Made by a program: the position numbers and the translations under genes | The notes under the pieces: model-generated | What the model was told of the DNA's origin: nothing | The model's input: only the letters and a program-made list of their open reading frames with translations | The model's database searches: none | Part shown: piece by piece, positions 9,376 through 20,532 of the stretch | How positions within the stretch are numbered: the stretch's first letter is position 1 | How the letters are laid out: each line of letters begins with the position of its first letter | DNA from: Streptosporangiaceae bacterium | Lineage (GTDB): Bacteria > Actinomycetota > Actinomycetes > Streptosporangiales > Streptosporangiaceae | Direction of reading: 5' to 3' | DNA length: 64,000 nt | Assembly: GCA_025964695.1 (NCBI GenBank) | Contig: JAOPYK010000002.1 | Coordinates: 1-64,000 of the forward strand

Positions 9376-10785
9376 CTAGCTGGGGAGGTTCCACTTCTGG
9401 TTGGCGCCACCGCTGCAGTCCCAGATCTGCAACCGGGTGCCGTTGGCCGAACTGACCCCGGTGGCATCCAGGCACCGGCCCGACTGCGGATTGACCAGCG
9501 ACCCGCCGGTGCCCGCCTGCCACTTCTGCGCCCCCGTGCCGTTGCAGTCATACAGCTGCACGAGCGAACCGTTCGCCGTACCGCCCGAGGCGATGTCCAT
9601 GCACTTGCCCAGCGCGCGCAACGACGTATCCGAGGCGACCGTCCAGCTCTGCGCCGCCGTACCGTTGCAGTCGTAGAGTTGCACCGCCGCGCCGTTCGCG
9701 GTGCTCGCCGCGGCTACGTCGACGCACTTCCCGCCATACCCGGTGATCTGGCCGGTCGGAGAGCCCGTGCCGCCGCCGCTGCCAGTGATGGCGTTGAAGG
9801 TGCGGGCGAACTGATAGGCGCTCTGTGGGGTCCCGCTGCACGTATCGGAGAGGGTGCCGTTGGTAGCGCACGCCTTGTCGCGGCCGAGGGACCAGAAGGA
9901 GAGCTCCTGGATGCCGTGGCTGGCGGCGAAGCTCTCCAGCGTCGAGGCGTTGGCGGTGGTGAAGACCTCGTTGGTGGAGTCGTTCACCCCGATCATGGGC
10001 GTGTTGCCCTCCATGGCCCACAGCTGGTCGGACGTCTTCGAGGTCCAGATGTTGCCGAGCTGACCGTGCAGCGCGTTGGCGGCGTTGATGGCGGCCTGGC
10101 CCATGTCCATGGACGGCCCGTAATCCATGGTCATGATGTTGACCAGGCTGACGTCGAGCCCGCGGCTGTGGGCGTTGTTGAGGAGGCTGAGTGAGTTCGA
10201 CCCGAGGCCGGTCGGATCGACCGGGAGGGTGTAGTCGATGGCGAGGTGCTTGCCCGCGGCGGCGTACTGCTGCTGGAGCGCGGCGAGTGCCTGGTTCCGG
10301 CGATCGTTGGCGGCCGTGTCGTTGAGAGCCGCGCCCTCGATGTCCAGGTCGATCCGGGTGAGGTTGAGGGTGTCGACGACCTTCTTGTACTGAGCCTGCA
10401 GCGTGGACACCGAGCCGCAGGCCTGGCCGATCTCGGTACCTGAGGCACCGCCGAAGGAGACGATGACGTCGCCGCCGGAGGCGCGCAGGTTGTTGATCGC
10501 GCTCTGCCAGCCGGCGTCGTCGACGGAGGTCGTGCCGTTCCAGTTGGCGTTGCAGCCCCCTCCGCTGAGGACGAAGGCGAGCGTGTAGTACTTCAGCCCG
10601 GTGGCGGCCTGGGCGTTGGCCATCGCAGAGGTGGACCCCCAGGTCTCGACGTACGGGGCGGCGAAGTGGGCGGGGAAACCGGGCCCGGGGTTGACCGAGG
10701 CGCCGGCGGCCGGGCCGAGGCCGACCAGCAGTCCGGTGAGCGGGATCGCGGCTGCGATGAGGCTCTTCAGGCGGGAGCGGGACAT
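9376..10785 (-). CDS. Secreted GH18 chitinase with ricin-type lectin module
   Basis: A 469-residue protein with a signal peptide (about residues 1-28), a GH18 barrel and a C-terminal ricin/CBM13 domain joined by a Gly-Ser linker. The catalytic strand reads TRIDLDIEGA, which keeps the DxDxE core with the proton-donor Glu. MTMDYG supplies the second GH18 signature (MxMDY). ATG 10785 follows AGGAGG. It should hydrolyse chitin; the lectin module probably tethers it to insoluble polysaccharide. It lies between the GH30 and GH16 genes on the same strand and is probably cotranscribed with GH16. Confidence 0.92.
   Translation of the reverse strand: MSRSRLKSLIAAAIPLTGLLVGLGPAAGASVNPGPGFPAHFAAPYVETWGSTSAMANAQAATGLKYYTLAFVLSGGGCNANWNGTTSVDDAGWQSAINNLRASGGDVIVSFGGASGTEIGQACGSVSTLQAQYKKVVDTLNLTRIDLDIEGAALNDTAANDRRNQALAALQQQYAAAGKHLAIDYTLPVDPTGLGSNSLSLLNNAHSRGLDVSLVNIMTMDYGPSMDMGQAAINAANALHGQLGNIWTSKTSDQLWAMEGNTPMIGVNDSTNEVFTTANASTLESFAASHGIQELSFWSLGRDKACATNGTLSDTCSGTPQSAYQFARTFNAITGSGGGTGSPTGQITGYGGKCVDVAAASTANGAAVQLYDCNGTAAQSWTVASDTSLRALGKCMDIASGGTANGSLVQLYDCNGTGAQKWQAGTGGSLVNPQSGRCLDATGVSSANGTRLQIWDCSGGANQKWNLPS
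9380..9750. repeat. 371-bp direct repeat, copy 2 (lectin module of GH18)
   Basis: Second copy of the repeat at 8098-8468, in the same orientation. A third, clearly more diverged lectin-coding copy lies at about 10911-11275 in the GH30 gene. The high DNA identity, extending to silent positions, points to recent duplication or gene conversion. Confidence 0.9.
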
Positions 10786-10896: not shown

Positions 10897-12804
10897 TCAC
10901 GACCCAGGTACGGTCCATTGCTGGTTGGTGCCTGCCGTGCAGTCCCAGATCTGCAACCGGGTGCCATTGGCCGAACTGACCCCGGTGGCGTCCAGGCATC
11001 GGCCCGAGGCGGGGTTGACCAGTGATTGGGAGGCGCCCTTCACCCATTGCTGTGCGCCCGTGCCGTTGCAGTCGTAGAGCTGCACCTGGGTGCCGTTGGC
11101 GGTACCGGCGGCGTTCAGGTCCATGCACTTGCCCAGGGCCCGGAGAGTGCCGTCGGTGCCCACCGTCCACTGCTGGGCGGCGGAGCCGTTGCAGTCGTAC
11201 AGCTGAACCGCGGTGCCGTTGGCCGAACTGGCTCCGGCCACGTCCGCGCACTTCCCGCCGATGCCGGTGATCGGGCCGGTAGTTCCGCCGCCGCCGCTCG
11301 GAGTGCCGCTCCAGGTGAAGGTGGCGGTGGTGTGGGCCGGGAGCGTGTAGACGAACGCCTGGGCGCCCCAGTTGACCTTGACGGACTGCGTGGCGCCGCT
11401 GTCGTTGTAGGCGATCAGCGCCTTGGAGCCGTCCGGGTTGCGCCAGGCCACGTTCGGCACCGCCGTGTTGGCGGTCGAGGCGATTCGGTAGGCGCCGGGC
11501 CGGACGAACTTGGTCAGGTGGCCCATGTCGTAGTACTCGATGGTGTAGTCGACCTGGCCGGTGCGGCCGTCGCCGTTGTGCACGGTGATCAGCCCGGTGC
11601 AGGTGGAGCAGCCGCCGTTGTGCGGTCCGTGGTTCTGGTCGACGGCCAGGGACCACTTGACGACGCTCTTACCCCAGTTACGGGTGTAGTCGATGATGTT
11701 GCGCATGTCCTCCTGCTGCTGGTCACCGATCCAGGTGCCGCCCGAGTGCTCGGTGTCGTAGGCGTCGACGGAGGGGTACTGGTTGTGCACCGTCGCTTGC
11801 TGGCTCACGTTGCCGCCGTAGCCGTGCCAGGCGATACCGCCGAACAGCGAATCCCCGCGGATGGCGGAGTCGTCGACGACGGGTGCGCCGTAGCCGCCGT
11901 ACGCGTCCCAGTTCCAGTCCAGGGCGAGGACCTTGGTGGACAGGCCGGCCGCGTGGAAGGCCGGTAGCAGATTGGTCTTGGTGAAGTAGTTCAGCCCGGA
12001 GCCGTTCCAGCTCATCGATGGGTAACCCGAGCAGCAGGTGGGCTCGTTCTGCGCGGAGACATAGTCGATGGGCACGCCCTGAGCCTGGTACGCCTGGACG
12101 TACTTGACGAAGTACTGCGCGTAGGCCGCGTAGTACTGGGACTGCAGCCAGCCGGGGTTGTTGAAGTCGCCGTTGTCCTTCATCCAGGCCGGGGCGCTCC
12201 ACGGTGTGGCCATCACCTTGAGACCCGGGTTGAGCTGCTGCGCCTGTTTGGTCAGCGGCAGGACGTCGGCGAGGTCGTGGGAGATGGAGAAGCGGCTGAG
12301 GCTCGGGTCGGTCTGCCCGGCGGGCATGTCGTCGTAGGAGTAGCTGAAGCGAGCCAAATCCGAGGCGCCCATCGGATTACGCAGAAAGCTCAGGCCGATG
12401 CCGTTGGCGGGATCGAACAGCTTCTGCATCACCTGAGTGCGGGTGGCAGAGGTCAGGGCTCCGCTGCTTTGCATCAGCCAGGCGGCGGTGTCGGTGAATG
12501 ATGCACCCGCACCGGTGAATTGCTGGTAGCGGGTGTTCTCGTCGACAGTGATCGTCTGGTTCGCGCTGCCGCCGGCGCCGAATGAGATCGGAGTCTGCTG
12601 CTGGAGACCGCGGGTGACATTGCGGCCGCCGGAGTCATTGGTGCTCGTCAGCCAGACGTTGACCGTCTCTCCAGCGGCATGTGCCGCCGGCGTGCCGGTG
12701 AAGGCGGCGGTGAGGATGAGGAGGGCTGAGCTGGACGCGGCGAGGAGCGTACGCAGCCGGGGGCGTCCGGGACTTTGACATGGGGGTTCGGCGATCATGG
12801 TCAT
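10897..12804 (-). CDS. Secreted GH30 glucanase/glucosylceramidase family enzyme with ricin-type lectin module
   Basis: A 635-residue protein: signal peptide ending near AAHAAG, a GH30 (beta/alpha)8 barrel with its associated beta-domain, and a C-terminal ricin B/CBM13 module. The acid/base Glu sits in SAQNEP and the nucleophile Glu in DTEHSG. Bacterial GH30 enzymes of this shape include endo-beta-1,6-glucanases and glucosylceramidases. With GH16 and GH18 neighbours, beta-1,6-glucan of fungal walls is the likeliest substrate (inference). ATG at 12804; an ATG two codons later is also possible. A consensus promoter and palindrome lie about 90-150 bases upstream. Confidence 0.92.
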   Translation of the reverse strand: MTMIAEPPCQSPGRPRLRTLLAASSSALLILTAAFTGTPAAHAAGETVNVWLTSTNDSGGRNVTRGLQQQTPISFGAGGSANQTITVDENTRYQQFTGAGASFTDTAAWLMQSSGALTSATRTQVMQKLFDPANGIGLSFLRNPMGASDLARFSYSYDDMPAGQTDPSLSRFSISHDLADVLPLTKQAQQLNPGLKVMATPWSAPAWMKDNGDFNNPGWLQSQYYAAYAQYFVKYVQAYQAQGVPIDYVSAQNEPTCCSGYPSMSWNGSGLNYFTKTNLLPAFHAAGLSTKVLALDWNWDAYGGYGAPVVDDSAIRGDSLFGGIAWHGYGGNVSQQATVHNQYPSVDAYDTEHSGGTWIGDQQQEDMRNIIDYTRNWGKSVVKWSLAVDQNHGPHNGGCSTCTGLITVHNGDGRTGQVDYTIEYYDMGHLTKFVRPGAYRIASTANTAVPNVAWRNPDGSKALIAYNDSGATQSVKVNWGAQAFVYTLPAHTTATFTWSGTPSGGGGTTGPITGIGGKCADVAGASSANGTAVQLYDCNGSAAQQWTVGTDGTLRALGKCMDLNAAGTANGTQVQLYDCNGTGAQQWVKGASQSLVNPASGRCLDATGVSSANGTRLQIWDCTAGTNQQWTVPGS

Positions 12805-14257: not shown

Positions 14258-15769
14258 TCAGCAATTCCAGCTCACGGAGGCGGTTCCGTTGGGAGAGAAC
14301 GATACCGAGCCGCTGCCCTGCCCGAGGCACCAGCCCTGACGGCTGACGGTGACCCCCGTGGACTGCCCGGCCGCGAGGTTGCCCCCACCCGACGCGTTGA
14401 GCGCGCCGGAACTGCCTGTCACGCTCCATTTCACCGGCCCGCCGCTCGCGGTCACCGTGATCGTGCAGCTCTTGTTCCCGGACCGCATGTGACAGCCCGA
14501 GACGGCCAACGTGCCCGGGGTCTCCGGCTTGGGCACCTCCGGCTTCGTCGTCTGAGGCTGGGCCGTGGTCAGCGTCGGGGTCGGCCTCGGGGAGTGCGGG
14601 GTCGGTGTGGGCGTCGGCGTCGGGGTGGGTGTGGCCGATGACCGGCCCTTGGTCGGTGACAGGGTGCCGACCCCTCCAGGGTTCCGGGAGGACGAGCTGT
14701 GCGGGTTGGCCTTACCCGGTGCCACCAGCGTCTGGTCGCCGGAGTTCGGCGACGCTCCGCTCTGCAGGACCACGACGGCGGTGCCGGTGGCGAGGAGGCC
14801 GCAGGCGGCCGCGGCGAGTCCCGGCCACATGCGGGGCCCGGTCCGAGGAGCACGCTCTACACCGGCCTTCTGTGCTGCACCGGCCTTCTGCGAACCGGCT
14901 TTGTGTCCTGGGTGAGCCGGCCATCCCGAGGCGTCGAAGGGCTCGGCGCGGCGGGCGATGGCCGACCGCCTCCCCCGGCGTTCCGGCGCGTTCGTGGTCG
15001 TATGGATCTCCGTCCAGAGCTCGGCCGGCATCTGCGCGGCCGGGAGCAGCTGGAGCAGGCGTCTGGCGGGCACCTTGCGCAGGTGGCGCTCGCCGCACAT
15101 CGGGCAGGCGTCGATGTGCCGGATGAGCCGCTTGTACGTGTCGGCGGTCGGCGGCCATGAGTCGATCAGGGCGTTGACACTCGGACAGTCCTCCCGTCCC
15201 GTGCGGGCGATGAGCGCGGCGGTGAAGGCGATCTCGAGGTCGCCGCAGGCCTGTTCGGCCAGTTGGTGGGCCTGAGTCACCGAAACCCCGACAACCCGGG
15301 CCAGCTGCCAGGTGTCGAGTTCATGTCGGGCGATGAGGATGACCGCTTCACGCTGACGGCCGACGACCGTCCCGAGGGCGCTGAAGACGAGTTCCCGGAA
15401 CTCCGCGCGCCGGGCCCGTTCCCCGGGTTCCAGCCCGAGATCATCGTCGGCCACGGCGGCCTCATGGCGCTCGGTGCCCACCTGCCGGTCCTCGAGGCGG
15501 CGCAGGCACTCCCTGCGGGCGATGGCGTAGAGCCACCCGCGCAGCTGCTCGGGCTCGTGCAACTTGGCGATGTGCTGTTGAGCCGCGATCAAGGAATCGT
15601 GCACAGCGTGGGCGGCGTCGACCTGATCTTGGAGAAAGGTATGGCAGTAGTCGTACAGCCGCGCCCCGTAGCTCCCATAGATCTGGGTCAGCGCCTTCGC
15701 GCCGGCCCCATGCAGGGAAGCCGCCAGTCGACGATCATCGACGTCTTCAATGCCCGGCCAACCGGCCAC
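14258..15769 (-). CDS. ECF-type sigma factor fused to anti-sigma zinc motif, membrane anchor and outer domain
   Basis: A 503-residue multidomain protein. Residues about 13-90 look like sigma region 2 and about 110-170 like region 4, with a long intervening linker. At 218-225 there is an HxxxCxxC motif (HIDACPMC), the zinc core of ZAS anti-sigma factors. A single hydrophobic segment follows at about 315-336, then a Ser/Thr-Pro stalk with TP repeats (379-392), then a C-terminal domain with four Cys (426, 435, 481, 503) expected outside the cell. GTG 15769 was chosen because GGGAGGA precedes it by 5 bases; a GTG 15 codons earlier lacks such a site. The architecture suggests a membrane-tethered sigma factor controlled by its own extracellular sensor. 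Confidence 0.8.
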   Translation of the reverse strand: MAGWPGIEDVDDRRLAASLHGAGAKALTQIYGSYGARLYDYCHTFLQDQVDAAHAVHDSLIAAQQHIAKLHEPEQLRGWLYAIARRECLRRLEDRQVGTERHEAAVADDDLGLEPGERARRAEFRELVFSALGTVVGRQREAVILIARHELDTWQLARVVGVSVTQAHQLAEQACGDLEIAFTAALIARTGREDCPSVNALIDSWPPTADTYKRLIRHIDACPMCGERHLRKVPARRLLQLLPAAQMPAELWTEIHTTTNAPERRGRRSAIARRAEPFDASGWPAHPGHKAGSQKAGAAQKAGVERAPRTGPRMWPGLAAAACGLLATGTAVVVLQSGASPNSGDQTLVAPGKANPHSSSSRNPGGVGTLSPTKGRSSATPTPTPTPTPTPHSPRPTPTLTTAQPQTTKPEVPKPETPGTLAVSGCHMRSGNKSCTITVTASGGPVKWSVTGSSGALNASGGGNLAAGQSTGVTVSRQGWCLGQGSGSVSFSPNGTASVSWNC

Positions 15770-16177
15770 CAGTTCCTCCCGCTCACAAGATCGCGGCCGT
15801 TGCCGATCGCGCACGCTCGGTAATCGTGGTCGAATCCACTAGGTACAAGCGCCAACACAGTCAGAAACGTCACGGGATGCCCGGAGAAGCGGAGTTTTGT
15901 GTGGATATGGGGGCTGACGGGCCATTGCCTACGCCGCTCCGGCCCTCCGCGGCGGTAGGGCTGGTAGCGGACGTAGACCGCCTGTAGGTAGCCGCGTAAC
16001 TGTGCGACCGCGTTGACGGTACGGAAATCCGATCCGTACCAGTGCAGCGTGATGAAGTCGACCCGATAGTGGCGGGCGGCGGCTCGGCAGGTCCGTCCGC
16101 TGGAGTTCGCCGCCCTCCTCGGGCGACCAGGGCGACCCCGGCGCAGAGCGTCCGACAACACTTTTTCGGGACTTCAT
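15770..16177. other. Intergenic stretch upstream of the sigma-fusion gene
   Basis: About 400 bases holding the glycosidase relic at 15950-16095 and presumably the promoter of the sigma-fusion gene. I found no convincing hexamers. The T-rich run CACTTTTTCGGG near 16159 lies just past the lipoprotein stop on its downstream side. Confidence 0.4.
15950..16095 (-). pseudogene. Relic of an Asl1/GH128-like glycosidase domain
   Basis: About 45 residues in one minus-strand frame (AARHYRVDFITLHWYG, then NAVAQLRGYLQAVYVRYQ) closely resemble the central barrel of Asl1-like/GH128 beta-1,3-glucanases. In that family LHWYG is a conserved strand. Both flanks lose the similarity, and no catalytic-Glu segment (WLTEF-type) follows. 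It is a short decayed remnant with no start codon. Confidence 0.6.
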
Positions 16178-16903: not shown

Positions 16904-17120
16904 CTCAGGATCTCCAGAAGGTCGGCTGCTGTGCGCTACGCCCACGAGGGGGCGTCCATGTTTCGATGCTCGCCAAGCAAAGCACATGTGAATTCAATAA
17001 ACAACTACCAGCGCTGTGTTCGACCGTACGGCTTCGTGGCTGTAACCTTCCCGTCATCGGCCGGGACGCCGGGTCTCGAGTGTGAGGCCCGGATGGACCT
17101 CGGGCCGGGAAGGATGGACC

Positions 17121-19016
17121 GTGCAGGACCAGGCGACTGTGAGCGCGGCGGACATCGCCCGGCTGGCCGGGGTCGGCCGCGCGGCGGTGAGCAACTGGCG
17201 TCGCCGGCATCCCGACTTTCCCCAGCCGGTGGGCGGCACCCCCATCAGCCCGGTGTTCGCCCTCGCGGAGATTGAAGCATGGCTTCGTGACCAGGGAAAG
17301 CTTCAGGAACTGCCCCAGGAGGAACGGGCCTGGCAGAAGCTCCGGGCCGAAGCGGGCGACGACCTCCGGTTGGCCGAGGTCCTCGGGGACGCGGGAGATC
17401 TGCTGCTGGAACGCCGGGCCGCCCGAGCGGTCCAGGTCCGCGGTCCGGCGGCGCCGGGACGGCCGGAGGCGGCCGAGGCGGTCATCGGGCTGGCCGCCGA
17501 GCGAGGGGCGGCCCAGGCCTTCGAGTTCCTGCTCGGCCGCTACAAGGAGACCCAGGGCCGCCGCGCCTCCACTACCCCGGCTGAGATCGCGAGCCTGATG
17601 GCGACGCTGGCGGGCGATGCCCCCACCATCCTCGATCCCGCCTGTGGCACCGGCGAACTGCTGCTCGCCGCCCTGGCGAACACCGCCGCCCCACGCCGGC
17701 TGTTCGGTCAGGACGCCGCCGGCGAGGTCACCCGGCTGGCCGCGATCCGGCTGGCCCTGCGGACCAGTGCGGCGACCGTCCAGGCGGGCGACTCGCTACG
17801 CCGCGATGCCTTCCCCGGTGTGCTGGCCGACGCCGTGGTGTGCGACCCGCCCTTCCACGAACGCGCTTGGGGTCACGAGGAGCTGACCGCGGATCCGCGC
17901 TGGGAGTACGGGCTGCCCCCGCGGTTGGAGCCGGAGCTCGCGTGGGTCCAGCATGCCCTGGCGCACCTGGCACCGGGGGGGCTGGCGGTGGTCCTGATGC
18001 CCGCTGTCGCGGCCGGTCGCAGGTCCGGCCGCCGGATCCGGGCCCAGCTGCTGCGCAGAAGCGCGCTACGTGCCGTCATAGCGCTTTCCGCGACCTACCA
18101 TCTCTGGTTGCTACGCCGTCCCGATGGCGGCACCCCGGCGACCGCCCTCATGATCGACAGCGCCGATCCGGAGACGATCGTCAACGCCTGGCAGGCGTAC
18201 GCGAGCGACCCCGATCATGACGAGCCGGGAGTCAGCCGGGCCGTACCCGTCATCGACCTCCTCGATGAGGAGGTGGATCTGACCCCCGCTCGTCATCTGC
18301 CCGCCACCAGGTCCGAACGGACGGCCGAGCGGTTCGCGGAGACCCACGACCGGCTGGCGGCCTCGCTCGGAAGGCTCGGCAACCTCGTTCCGGCCGTCTG
18401 GCCGACCACGGATCGGATCGAGTCGAAGACCGTTCTGGTCGCCGAACTCGACCGGATCGGGTACCTCACGGTCCACCAGGCTCCGCTGCGCAGGGAGACA
18501 GATGACGGCGGCGGGGAGCCGCTGCTCACCACCGAGGACGTCATCGAGGGCCGTCCCGCCTCGGGCCGGGTGCTGCCGGACGAGTCCCGATGGATCACCA
18601 CGCGGGCCGGTGACATCGTCGTCGCCGTGGCAGCCCGGCGCTTCGCGGCCCGGGTCATGGAGGCGGGTGGTGCTCTGCTCGGGCCTCAGCTCTCCCTGAT
18701 CCGCGTCGACCCCGAGCGGCTCGATCCGTACTTCGTGGCGGGCGTGCTGCGCAGTTCCGCCAACGTACGGTCGTCGACCGTTCAGTCGACCGCGGGTACC
18801 GGCCGGGCGGACATCCGGCGCGCACAGGTGCCCCGGTTGCCGCTGGAGGAGCAGCGCCGCTACGGAGACGCGTTCCGGCACATGGCGGAGTTCGAGTCGG
18901 CGATACGGTCGACCGCGGTCACGGGTGCGGAGATGGCTCAGCTCCTGTCCGATGGGGTGGCCGAGGGGACGCTTGCACCGGCGCCCGGGGGAAACCCGTC
19001 TCCCACCGGCCGGTGA
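17121..19016 (+). CDS. HTH + N6-adenine DNA methylase + specificity-like domain fusion
   Basis: A 631-residue protein in three parts. Residues 5-55 form a helix-turn-helix of the AlpA/MerR excisionase kind (ADIARLAGVGRAAVSNWRRR). The middle is a type I (HsdM-like) methyltransferase with SAM motif DPACGTGE at 172-179 and catalytic motif DPPF at 242-245, where NPPF is usual in this family. The C-terminal 200 residues look like one HsdS target-recognition half (GDIVVA, LSLIRVDPERLDPYFVAGVL, ADIRRAQVPRLPLEEQ). GTG 17121 has GGAAGGA 6 bases upstream. No restriction subunit is nearby, so it is an orphan methylase or regulator. A Ser/Thr kinase gene follows after 58 bases. Confidence 0.8.
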   Translation: MQDQATVSAADIARLAGVGRAAVSNWRRRHPDFPQPVGGTPISPVFALAEIEAWLRDQGKLQELPQEERAWQKLRAEAGDDLRLAEVLGDAGDLLLERRAARAVQVRGPAAPGRPEAAEAVIGLAAERGAAQAFEFLLGRYKETQGRRASTTPAEIASLMATLAGDAPTILDPACGTGELLLAALANTAAPRRLFGQDAAGEVTRLAAIRLALRTSAATVQAGDSLRRDAFPGVLADAVVCDPPFHERAWGHEELTADPRWEYGLPPRLEPELAWVQHALAHLAPGGLAVVLMPAVAAGRRSGRRIRAQLLRRSALRAVIALSATYHLWLLRRPDGGTPATALMIDSADPETIVNAWQAYASDPDHDEPGVSRAVPVIDLLDEEVDLTPARHLPATRSERTAERFAETHDRLAASLGRLGNLVPAVWPTTDRIESKTVLVAELDRIGYLTVHQAPLRRETDDGGGEPLLTTEDVIEGRPASGRVLPDESRWITTRAGDIVVAVAARRFAARVMEAGGALLGPQLSLIRVDPERLDPYFVAGVLRSSANVRSSTVQSTAGTGRADIRRAQVPRLPLEEQRRYGDAFRHMAEFESAIRSTAVTGAEMAQLLSDGVAEGTLAPAPGGNPSPTGR

Positions 19017-19074
19017 TGCGGCCGTAGGGTGTGGGCATCGGACCAGATGGTGTCGCTCGGCGAGGAGAGGGAAC

Positions 19075-20532
19075 GTGGGGCAGCACACGGTGCTGGCCGG
19101 TCGCTACGAGCTGATCAGCCCGCTGGGCCGGGGTGGCATGGGCCAGGTCTGGGAGGGCGAAGACCGACGGCTCGAACGCCGGGTCGCGGTGAAGCTCCTG
19201 ACCAACGAGGCGCTCGCCGGACGCGCGGAGCCGCACGACCTCGTACACAGGTTCGCGCGGGAGGCCGCCGTCACGGCCGGGCTGCGGCATCCCGGCGTAC
19301 CTGCCGTGTACGACGCGGGAACCTACGACGGCGGGCTCTTCCTCGTCCTGGAAATGGTCGGCGGCTGCGCGCTCGGCGACCTCATGGCCGAGCAGGGGCC
19401 GCTTCCAGTGGCCTGGGCGGCCGGGATCGCGGCGCAGGTGGCGGCGGTGCTGGCCGCCGCCCACGAGCGTCGGCTCGTCCACCGGGACGTGAAACCGCAG
19501 AATCTCATGCTCACCCGGGACGGGACCGTCAAGGTTCTCGACTTCGGGGTGGCGGCCGTGCTCGACCAGGCCGGGGTGCCCCGGATCACGCGGACGGGAG
19601 AGACGATCGGCACCCCCGCGTACATGGCACCCGAGCAGCTGCACAGCCGGCCGGCCACCCCACGTACCGACCTATACGCTCTCGGCTGCGTGCTGTACGA
19701 GATGCTCGCGGGCAAGCCGATCTTCGAGTCGACCTCGGCCGCCGGGCTCATGCACAAGCATCTCGAACAGGCTCCCGCCCCGCTGCGCCGCGATGACCTT
19801 CCTCACGAACTGGACGTGCTGGTCCGGCAGTTGCTGGAGAAGGATCCGGCCAGGCGGCCGGTGAACGCGCGGGAGACCTACGACCGGCTCCTGCCACATG
19901 TGGCGCGGCTGGGGCCGCTCGGCGACCTCGACCCGGCCGCGGACGACCAGGACGGCATGCACCTCTACTCGCGCGTTCTCGTGCGGATCTCGGGCGCGGC
20001 CGAGCCACGGCACGACCCGGGTTCCGCCGGCCCGGCGGAATCCCGGCCGTGGCCGCCCGTCTGGTCGGGTCCGCAACCGGCCGCCGGCGGCGACGACTGG
20101 TACGGACGGCGACAAGCGCAGCGAAGCACCACCTGGAAACTTGTGCACAGCCTGTGGATACTGCCGACCCTGCTGTTCGGACTGGGTACGTGGCTGTCGT
20201 TCGGTTACATCGCGGCCCGGCACAGGCGGCTCTCCTGGCTACTCGCCGCAGCCGCCTACCTTGTGCTCGCGGTCACGGCGTTCGCCCTCGTCGGCAGCGG
20301 CCCAGAGCAGGTGAGCGCATCGGACACGGGCCCGATCCAGACCGATATCGGCATGGTCATAGGGCTGCTCCTGTGGCCCGCCGGAATTCTGCACGCCCTC
20401 TGGATCAACATGACGGTCCGGTTGCGGCTGCGGGACCAGAAAGACCACGATCGCTGGGAAGGCGCGGCCCCGGTCATCACTGCCAGGCCCTTCGCCGGAT
20501 CCCGTCGTGACCGGCGTGACCAGGCCGTGTGA
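19075..20532 (+). CDS. Ser/Thr protein kinase with C-terminal membrane segments
   Basis: A 485-residue Hanks-type kinase. The Gly-loop GRGGMGQVW is near residue 18, the ATP-binding Lys is in VAVKLL, the catalytic loop HRDVKPQN starts at 136, DFG is present, and the activation segment ends GTPAYMAPE. A linker of about 80 residues separates the kinase from a C-terminal region with three hydrophobic segments (about residues 365-385, 390-412, 428-448). There are no PASTA repeats. GTG 19075 has GAGGAGAGGG upstream. It follows the methylase fusion on the same strand and may be cotranscribed. It converges on the oxygenase gene with a 9-base gap. Confidence 0.88.
   Translation: MGQHTVLAGRYELISPLGRGGMGQVWEGEDRRLERRVAVKLLTNEALAGRAEPHDLVHRFAREAAVTAGLRHPGVPAVYDAGTYDGGLFLVLEMVGGCALGDLMAEQGPLPVAWAAGIAAQVAAVLAAAHERRLVHRDVKPQNLMLTRDGTVKVLDFGVAAVLDQAGVPRITRTGETIGTPAYMAPEQLHSRPATPRTDLYALGCVLYEMLAGKPIFESTSAAGLMHKHLEQAPAPLRRDDLPHELDVLVRQLLEKDPARRPVNARETYDRLLPHVARLGPLGDLDPAADDQDGMHLYSRVLVRISGAAEPRHDPGSAGPAESRPWPPVWSGPQPAAGGDDWYGRRQAQRSTTWKLVHSLWILPTLLFGLGTWLSFGYIAARHRRLSWLLAAAAYLVLAVTAFALVGSGPEQVSASDTGPIQTDIGMVIGLLLWPAGILHALWINMTVRLRLRDQKDHDRWEGAAPVITARPFAGSRRDRRDQAV

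Follow-up and report, generated by a model that had tools for sequence, protein, structure and literature searches.

One predicted polypeptide combining an ECF sigma factor, a zinc-binding anti-sigma domain and a membrane-anchored outer domain in a Streptosporangiaceae bacterium

The gene and its surroundings

The window analysed here is a stretch of 64,000 nucleotides from a Streptosporangiaceae bacterium (assembly GCA_025964695.1, contig JAOPYK010000002.1, positions 1 to 64,000). It contains a gene for a protein in which ECF sigma regions, a zinc-binding anti-sigma (ZAS) domain, a transmembrane (TM) helix, a stalk and an extracytoplasmic domain follow each other in a single chain (Table 1). 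The original prediction had given the correct coordinates of this gene without its strand, which is the minus strand, and the parts it had listed were recovered: ECF sigma regions, the ZAS-type HxxxCxxC motif (here HIDACPMC), one TM helix, a TP-repeat stalk and an outer domain with four cysteines (C426, C435, C481 and C503). The protein starts at the same residue as its orthologs and relatives.

Table 1 Features of the fused sigma factor gene, in window coordinates
Feature	Position	Strand	Basis
Whole gene: fused ECF sigma / ZAS anti-sigma / TM / stalk / outer domain	14258..15769	-	503 aa, GTG start at 15769; colinear orthologs
Ribosome-binding site GGGAGGA	15774..15780	-	4 nt before GTG; upstream alignment
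ECF sigma region 2, residues 9-96	15482..15745	-	PF04542 E=8.9e-10; dN/dS 0.12
Sigma region 4 helix-turn-helix, residues 125-180	15230..15397	-	Family-level PF08281; AlphaFold2 helices; PDB profile matches through residue 180
Sigma4 recognition helix, residues 162-180	15230..15286	-	0 Lys/Arg, 3 Asp/Glu
Zinc-binding anti-sigma domain, residues 190-262	14984..15202	-	CHCC conservation; RsiW profile match E=0.0018; AlphaFold2
Juxtamembrane G-[WF]-P motif, residues 282-284	14918..14926	-	Conserved among 49 members
Single transmembrane helix, residues 317-335	14765..14821	-	Hydropathy in full-length members; dN/dS 0.08
Ser/Pro/Thr-rich stalk with TP repeats, residues 336-412	14534..14764	-	Sequence; dN/dS 0.72
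Extracytoplasmic Ig/BACON-like beta-sandwich, residues 414-503	14261..14530	-	AlphaFold2 pLDDT 88.6; Foldseek/VIA; weak BACON_2

A second assembly of the same genus contains an ortholog that is colinear over the full length, with 74-79 % identity, and full-length colinear ORFs are also present in other genomes, in dozens of relatives and in two tandem copies in one genome (G021). The overall dN/dS between the query and the genus ortholog is 0.29. By part it is 0.12 for sigma2, 0.33 for sigma4, 0.22 for the anti-sigma segment, 0.08 for the TM helix, 0.24 for the outer domain and 0.72 for the stalk, i.e. each folded part is under purifying selection and the stalk drifts more freely. The original prediction had named a frameshift joining two genes as the error that would undo it. 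Such a sequencing error, or a decaying gene, is extremely improbable given the colinear ORFs in the same-genus assembly, in G021 and in the other relatives, and given the low dN/dS, overall and in the folded parts; on these grounds both were ruled out.

When the window was compared with the locus of the same-genus ortholog, the alignment was limited to the gene and about 140 bp upstream of it. No shared flanking gene, and hence no candidate for a dedicated partner, was found in this comparison with one orthologous locus, which fits a one-protein system. Inspection by eye of the regions upstream of the paralogs revealed no shared promoter motif beyond the ribosome-binding site. Just upstream of the gene (15964-16083, minus strand) lies a 40-residue glycosyl hydrolase relic that shares 60 % identity with the outer domain (PF11790) of another fused sigma factor (L097), and no intact hydrolase gene surrounds it. 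Two secreted-looking proteins are encoded downstream on the minus strand, judged by eye from their sequences to be chitinase-like (9376-10785) and a GH30-like enzyme with a ricin-type lectin tail (10897-12804); neither gene was seen next to the genus ortholog. At 17082-20532 (plus strand) an N6 DNA methylase gene (PF02384) extends at its end into the called start of a Ser/Thr kinase ORF.

The sigma and anti-sigma parts

Sigma region 2 of the query is matched by PF04542 (38.7 bits, E=8.9e-10; cut-off 24), and the ECF model TIGR02937 spans residues 26-176 with 52.4 bits (cut-off 42.9). A Pfam scan of the query alone gave no match to region 4. PF08281 (Sigma70_r4_2) was matched by 26 of 29 relatives, and the family profile aligns with solved ECF sigma factors through sigma4, to residue 180. 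The segment-wise HMM search proposed with the original prediction therefore finds sigma2 directly and sigma4, with Pfam, only at the level of the family.

Basic residues contacting the -35 element are typical of the sigma4 recognition helix of ECF sigma factors, although they do not strictly define the group. The recognition helix of the query has neither Lys nor Arg, and the same is true of the genus ortholog; the two helices contain three to four acidic residues. In the seven-member clade of the query an automatic count gave a mean of 1.1 basic and 3.7 acidic residues, omitting the helix of one member (L027) that, read by eye, is acidic too and has one or two Arg. The corresponding means were 4.8 basic (range 2-7) and 0.6 acidic residues for 24 canonical ECF sigma factors of the query's own genome, and 3.6 basic (minimum 2) and 0.6 acidic for 30 from other genomes, a set picked by region-4 score and thus biased to typical ECF sigma factors. 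In sigmaE the residues T169, R171, S172, R173 and R176 hydrogen-bond the -35 element (PMC6713349). By our own mapping from the profile alignment these correspond to Q166, H168, Q169, L170 and Q173 of the query, and none of the -35-contacting residues of sigmaE or SigW is conserved in its recognition helix in that alignment.

A sigma4 helix uncharged in this sense, lacking Lys and Arg, was unexpected and is a new oddity of the query. It is not the result of simple decay, because the genus ortholog has it as well and the sigma4 fold is under selection. Judged from the sequence, it may reflect an altered -35 specificity, a dispensable -35 contact or a lost sigma function. Net acidic recognition helices also occur in a BACON-type fused sigma factor common to Streptomyces-like genomes (L059, L104-L109 and L111-L115); at the locus inspected, that of L059, the fused gene lies beside a radA-like gene.

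The zinc ligands of the CHCC anti-sigma domain are C195, H218, C222 and C225, which are kept in 46-48 of 49 members, the fourth ligand C195 in 46. The HxxxCxxC motif appears by chance in 0.7 % of shuffles of the query protein. It is present in 75 of 76 fused relatives, a figure that measures conservation and not independent discovery, since these relatives were gathered mostly by full-length similarity or with a profile that included the anti-sigma segment. The same C-Hx3Cx2C ligand pattern is found in RsiW of Bacillus subtilis (C3, H30, C34 and C37; PMC5358783). A profile of residues 182-280 matches RsiW weakly (E=0.0018), in register across the zinc motif, at a level that a collagen fusion protein also reaches by chance (E=0.0014). 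Pfam zf-HC2 matches 10 of 29 members and remained below the cut-off in one member scanned singly.

Two further observations concern this segment. The juxtamembrane G-[FW]-P motif, located after the anti-sigma domain and ahead of the TM helix, retains its G in 48 and its P in 47 of 49 members, and it is possibly a hinge or a protease-related element. One member of the query clade (L027; G017:C4, 529-2055, minus strand) has lost the ZAS core, corresponding to query residues ~194-229, in frame, and yet keeps the sigma part, TM helix, stalk and outer domain, so not every member depends on the ZAS. This natural deletion might be constitutively active.

The cytoplasmic part (residues 1-290) was modelled with AlphaFold2 from an alignment with 46 relatives, giving a pLDDT of 93.2 and a pTM of 0.91. 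The top VIA-align match of the model is SigW from the SigW/RsiW complex (5wuq; Z 13.9, 154 residues, 3.4 A), and CnrH/CnrY and RpoE/NepR rank beside it; RNA-polymerase-bound ECF sigma factors, the domains of which are spread apart, mostly align at 26-28 A rmsd. PhyR sigma-like domains are also among the structural matches, ranked below true sigma factors. The comparison rests on VIA-align Z and rmsd values, the Foldseek E-values for the cytoplasmic model being weak (best 1e-3). Because the sigma half of the model superposes on anti-sigma-bound sigma factors such as SigW and not on polymerase-bound ones, sigma2 and sigma4 are modelled in an anti-sigma-bound arrangement, unlike that of sigma factors on polymerase. 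This closed arrangement and the high pTM suggest that the ZAS domain docks in cis onto both sigma2 and sigma4, although AlphaFold2 may echo the bound state from its training structures. RsiW directly blocks the -35 surface of SigW, and sigma4 buries the -10 surface of sigma2 (PMC5358783). The original prediction had called for a structure prediction of this part and would have been abandoned had no ZAS fold appeared. As far as prediction goes, the RsiW profile match, the model and the structural alignments point to such a fold and to a sigma half arranged as in anti-sigma complexes.

The outer domain, relatives and known fused systems

The outer domain is predicted to be a nine-strand beta-sandwich of the Ig/PapD/ASH/BACON type (AlphaFold2 pLDDT 88.6; Foldseek and VIA-align). 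BACON_2 matches 17 of 31 outer domains at E<1 (best 2.2e-6), the query with E=0.058 being below the cut-off, and the Pfam scan of the query detected no NPCBM domain. Every complete member of the seven-protein clade retains the four cysteines, and disulfides probably stabilise the sandwich. The same genome encodes a protein of 270 amino acids (L005; G000:C55, 1489-2301, minus strand) that has a TM helix, a stalk and the same four-cysteine outer domain without sigma or ZAS parts; it could compete with the query for the same ligand.

Matches to the query were obtained in 49 of 60 related genomes, some of them only to the sigma part of plain ECF sigma factors. Full-chain relatives are present in most genomes of the same family, and the query genome has four full-chain copies. 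In a tree of the cytoplasmic part the query falls in a clade of seven proteins with four-cysteine BACON-like outer domains (support 99/98). The same cytoplasmic chassis is combined in other relatives with BACON_2, CAP, AbfB or a glycosyl hydrolase catalytic core, or ends in a bare stalk. The relatives with glycosyl hydrolase, AbfB and CAP domains come mostly from Streptomyces-like genomes and branch as a clade of their own beside the query lineage. G021 has two neighbouring members of the query clade, both fused sigma factors (L039; G021:C238, 1978-5250, plus strand), and G003 likewise has a tandem pair (L043/L071).

Fused proteins with a sigma/ZAS/TM layout have been described for the actinobacterial groups ECF48, ECF52 and ECF53, and their release by proteolysis or conformational change is a published model (PMC8999054, PMC5826349). 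The design described in the original prediction is thus not a new principle but already known, in layout as well as in the idea of proteolysis, and the query is a further protein of the ECF48/52/53 sort. The type member of ECF52, SCO4117 of Streptomyces coelicolor, is like the query an actinobacterial protein with sigma part, zinc finger, TM helix, proline-rich stalk and outer beta domain in one chain, and release by proteolysis has been proposed for it (PMC5826349). The outer domain of SCO4117 is however an NPCBM, a carbohydrate-binding module, whereas that of the query is Ig/BACON-like. ECF53 and ECF48 proteins share with the query a C-terminal ZAS-like domain and a long outer extension, and have one or two TM helices (PMC8999054; ECF53 also PMC10766802), a likeness in the described layout. 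For some ECF52 and ECF53 members, glycosyl hydrolase or carbohydrate-binding domains have been reported (PMC8999054; ECF53 also PMC10766802).

SCO4117-like Streptomyces proteins with a ZAS-TM-NPCBM order (L119-L122) were identified through their NPCBM domain; a TetR-like ORF adjoins in the one locus read. A sigma-only tree places them on a long branch among canonical ECF sigma factors and not within the query lineage, but a single clade of all fused proteins was not rejected (p-AU 0.257). From these sequence comparisons, the query lineage is probably distinct from that of SCO4117.

Outside the actinobacteria, IutY of Pseudomonas putida (ECF243) also carries a sigma factor and a membrane anti-sigma factor in one chain, and the accounts of it in PMC8999054 and PMC5826349 state that its release by proteolysis has been shown. 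Compared by description only, IutY differs from the query in belonging, according to those accounts, to a proteobacterial iron-starvation cell-surface signalling system. As far as the literature consulted covers these systems, SCO4117 is the best understood actinobacterial fused case and IutY the sole one with demonstrated proteolytic activation. SigW/RsiW, the best structural match to the sigma half in its inhibited form, consists of two separate proteins, in contrast to the single chain of the query.

Possible mode of action

We consider it reasonably probable that the protein is a sigma/anti-sigma receptor in one polypeptide, self-inhibited, held at the membrane and released upon a signal at the outer domain. 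The CHCC anti-sigma domain would pack onto sigma2 and sigma4 in cis and hold them closed as in the RsiW-bound state, so that the promoter and polymerase surfaces would be masked. The TM helix and the flexible stalk would link this cytoplasmic half to the beta-sandwich outside the membrane. A signal at the outer domain, or damage to it, would then free the sigma part. The most likely route is regulated intramembrane proteolysis, after which the anti-sigma segment would be removed; a conformational switch is less likely. Both release by proteolysis and sigma activity would be expected by analogy with the fused systems described above. Intramembrane M50 proteases are encoded in the query genome, but such proteases are near-universal and lend the proteolytic route little weight. 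Of the self-inhibited, membrane-held sigma factor originally predicted, the protein's own ZAS domain, its membrane attachment and a predicted inhibited fold thus stand. Its status as an ordinary sigma factor that reads DNA is uncertain: the recognition helix lacks basic residues and all of the -35 contacts known from sigmaE and SigW, and its acidity makes ordinary -35 reading doubtful.

This doubt leads to a tentative alternative, in which the protein is a sigma-derived regulator that no longer reads the -35 element. Its sigma2 would still bind polymerase or the -10 element and its sigma4 would be an acidic protein-binding module. The protein may act at -10-only promoters with a partner, or it may be a sigma mimic that sequesters polymerase or a different anti-sigma factor, in the manner of the sigma-like domain of PhyR. 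The absence of Lys and Arg from the recognition helix of both query and genus ortholog, against at least two in canonical ECF sigma factors, the replacement of all the sigmaE residues that hydrogen-bond the -35 element, the lack of a Pfam region 4 match in the query and the presence of PhyR domains among the structural matches agree with this reading. However, His and Gln can still contact bases, which leaves room for an altered -35 specificity, sigma4 is under purifying selection and sigma2 strongly conserved, and the PhyR matches rank below those to true sigma factors. It is conceivable, with similarly limited likelihood, that the query clade gave up -35 reading and that the acidic sigma4 came to serve as a contact surface for a protein, either its own anti-sigma domain or an activator; the receptor would then release a sigma2-driven or partner-guided factor and not a classical ECF sigma factor.

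The zinc site might instead itself be the sensor, as in RsrA, with oxidation in the cytoplasm or zinc loss opening the anti-sigma domain and the membrane part serving only for localisation. The CHCC ligands are conserved, as this would require, and RsrA, by the account given in PMC5358783, senses thiol oxidation with the same motif, but RsiW, which has that motif too, keeps SigW on oxidation (PMC5358783). The TM helix and outer domain of the query are under purifying selection and outer domains have been exchanged between lineages, which points to sensing outside the membrane, and we regard a zinc-site sensor as improbable.

Receptors in which sigma and anti-sigma factor are fused have been thinly studied, and the lineage of the query is abundant. 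With one cytoplasmic chassis and exchangeable outer domains it offers a natural set for understanding how, in a single chain, a sigma factor is set free by a signal from outside. If the uncharged recognition helix is confirmed, it would exemplify a sigma factor that is evolving away from -35 recognition.
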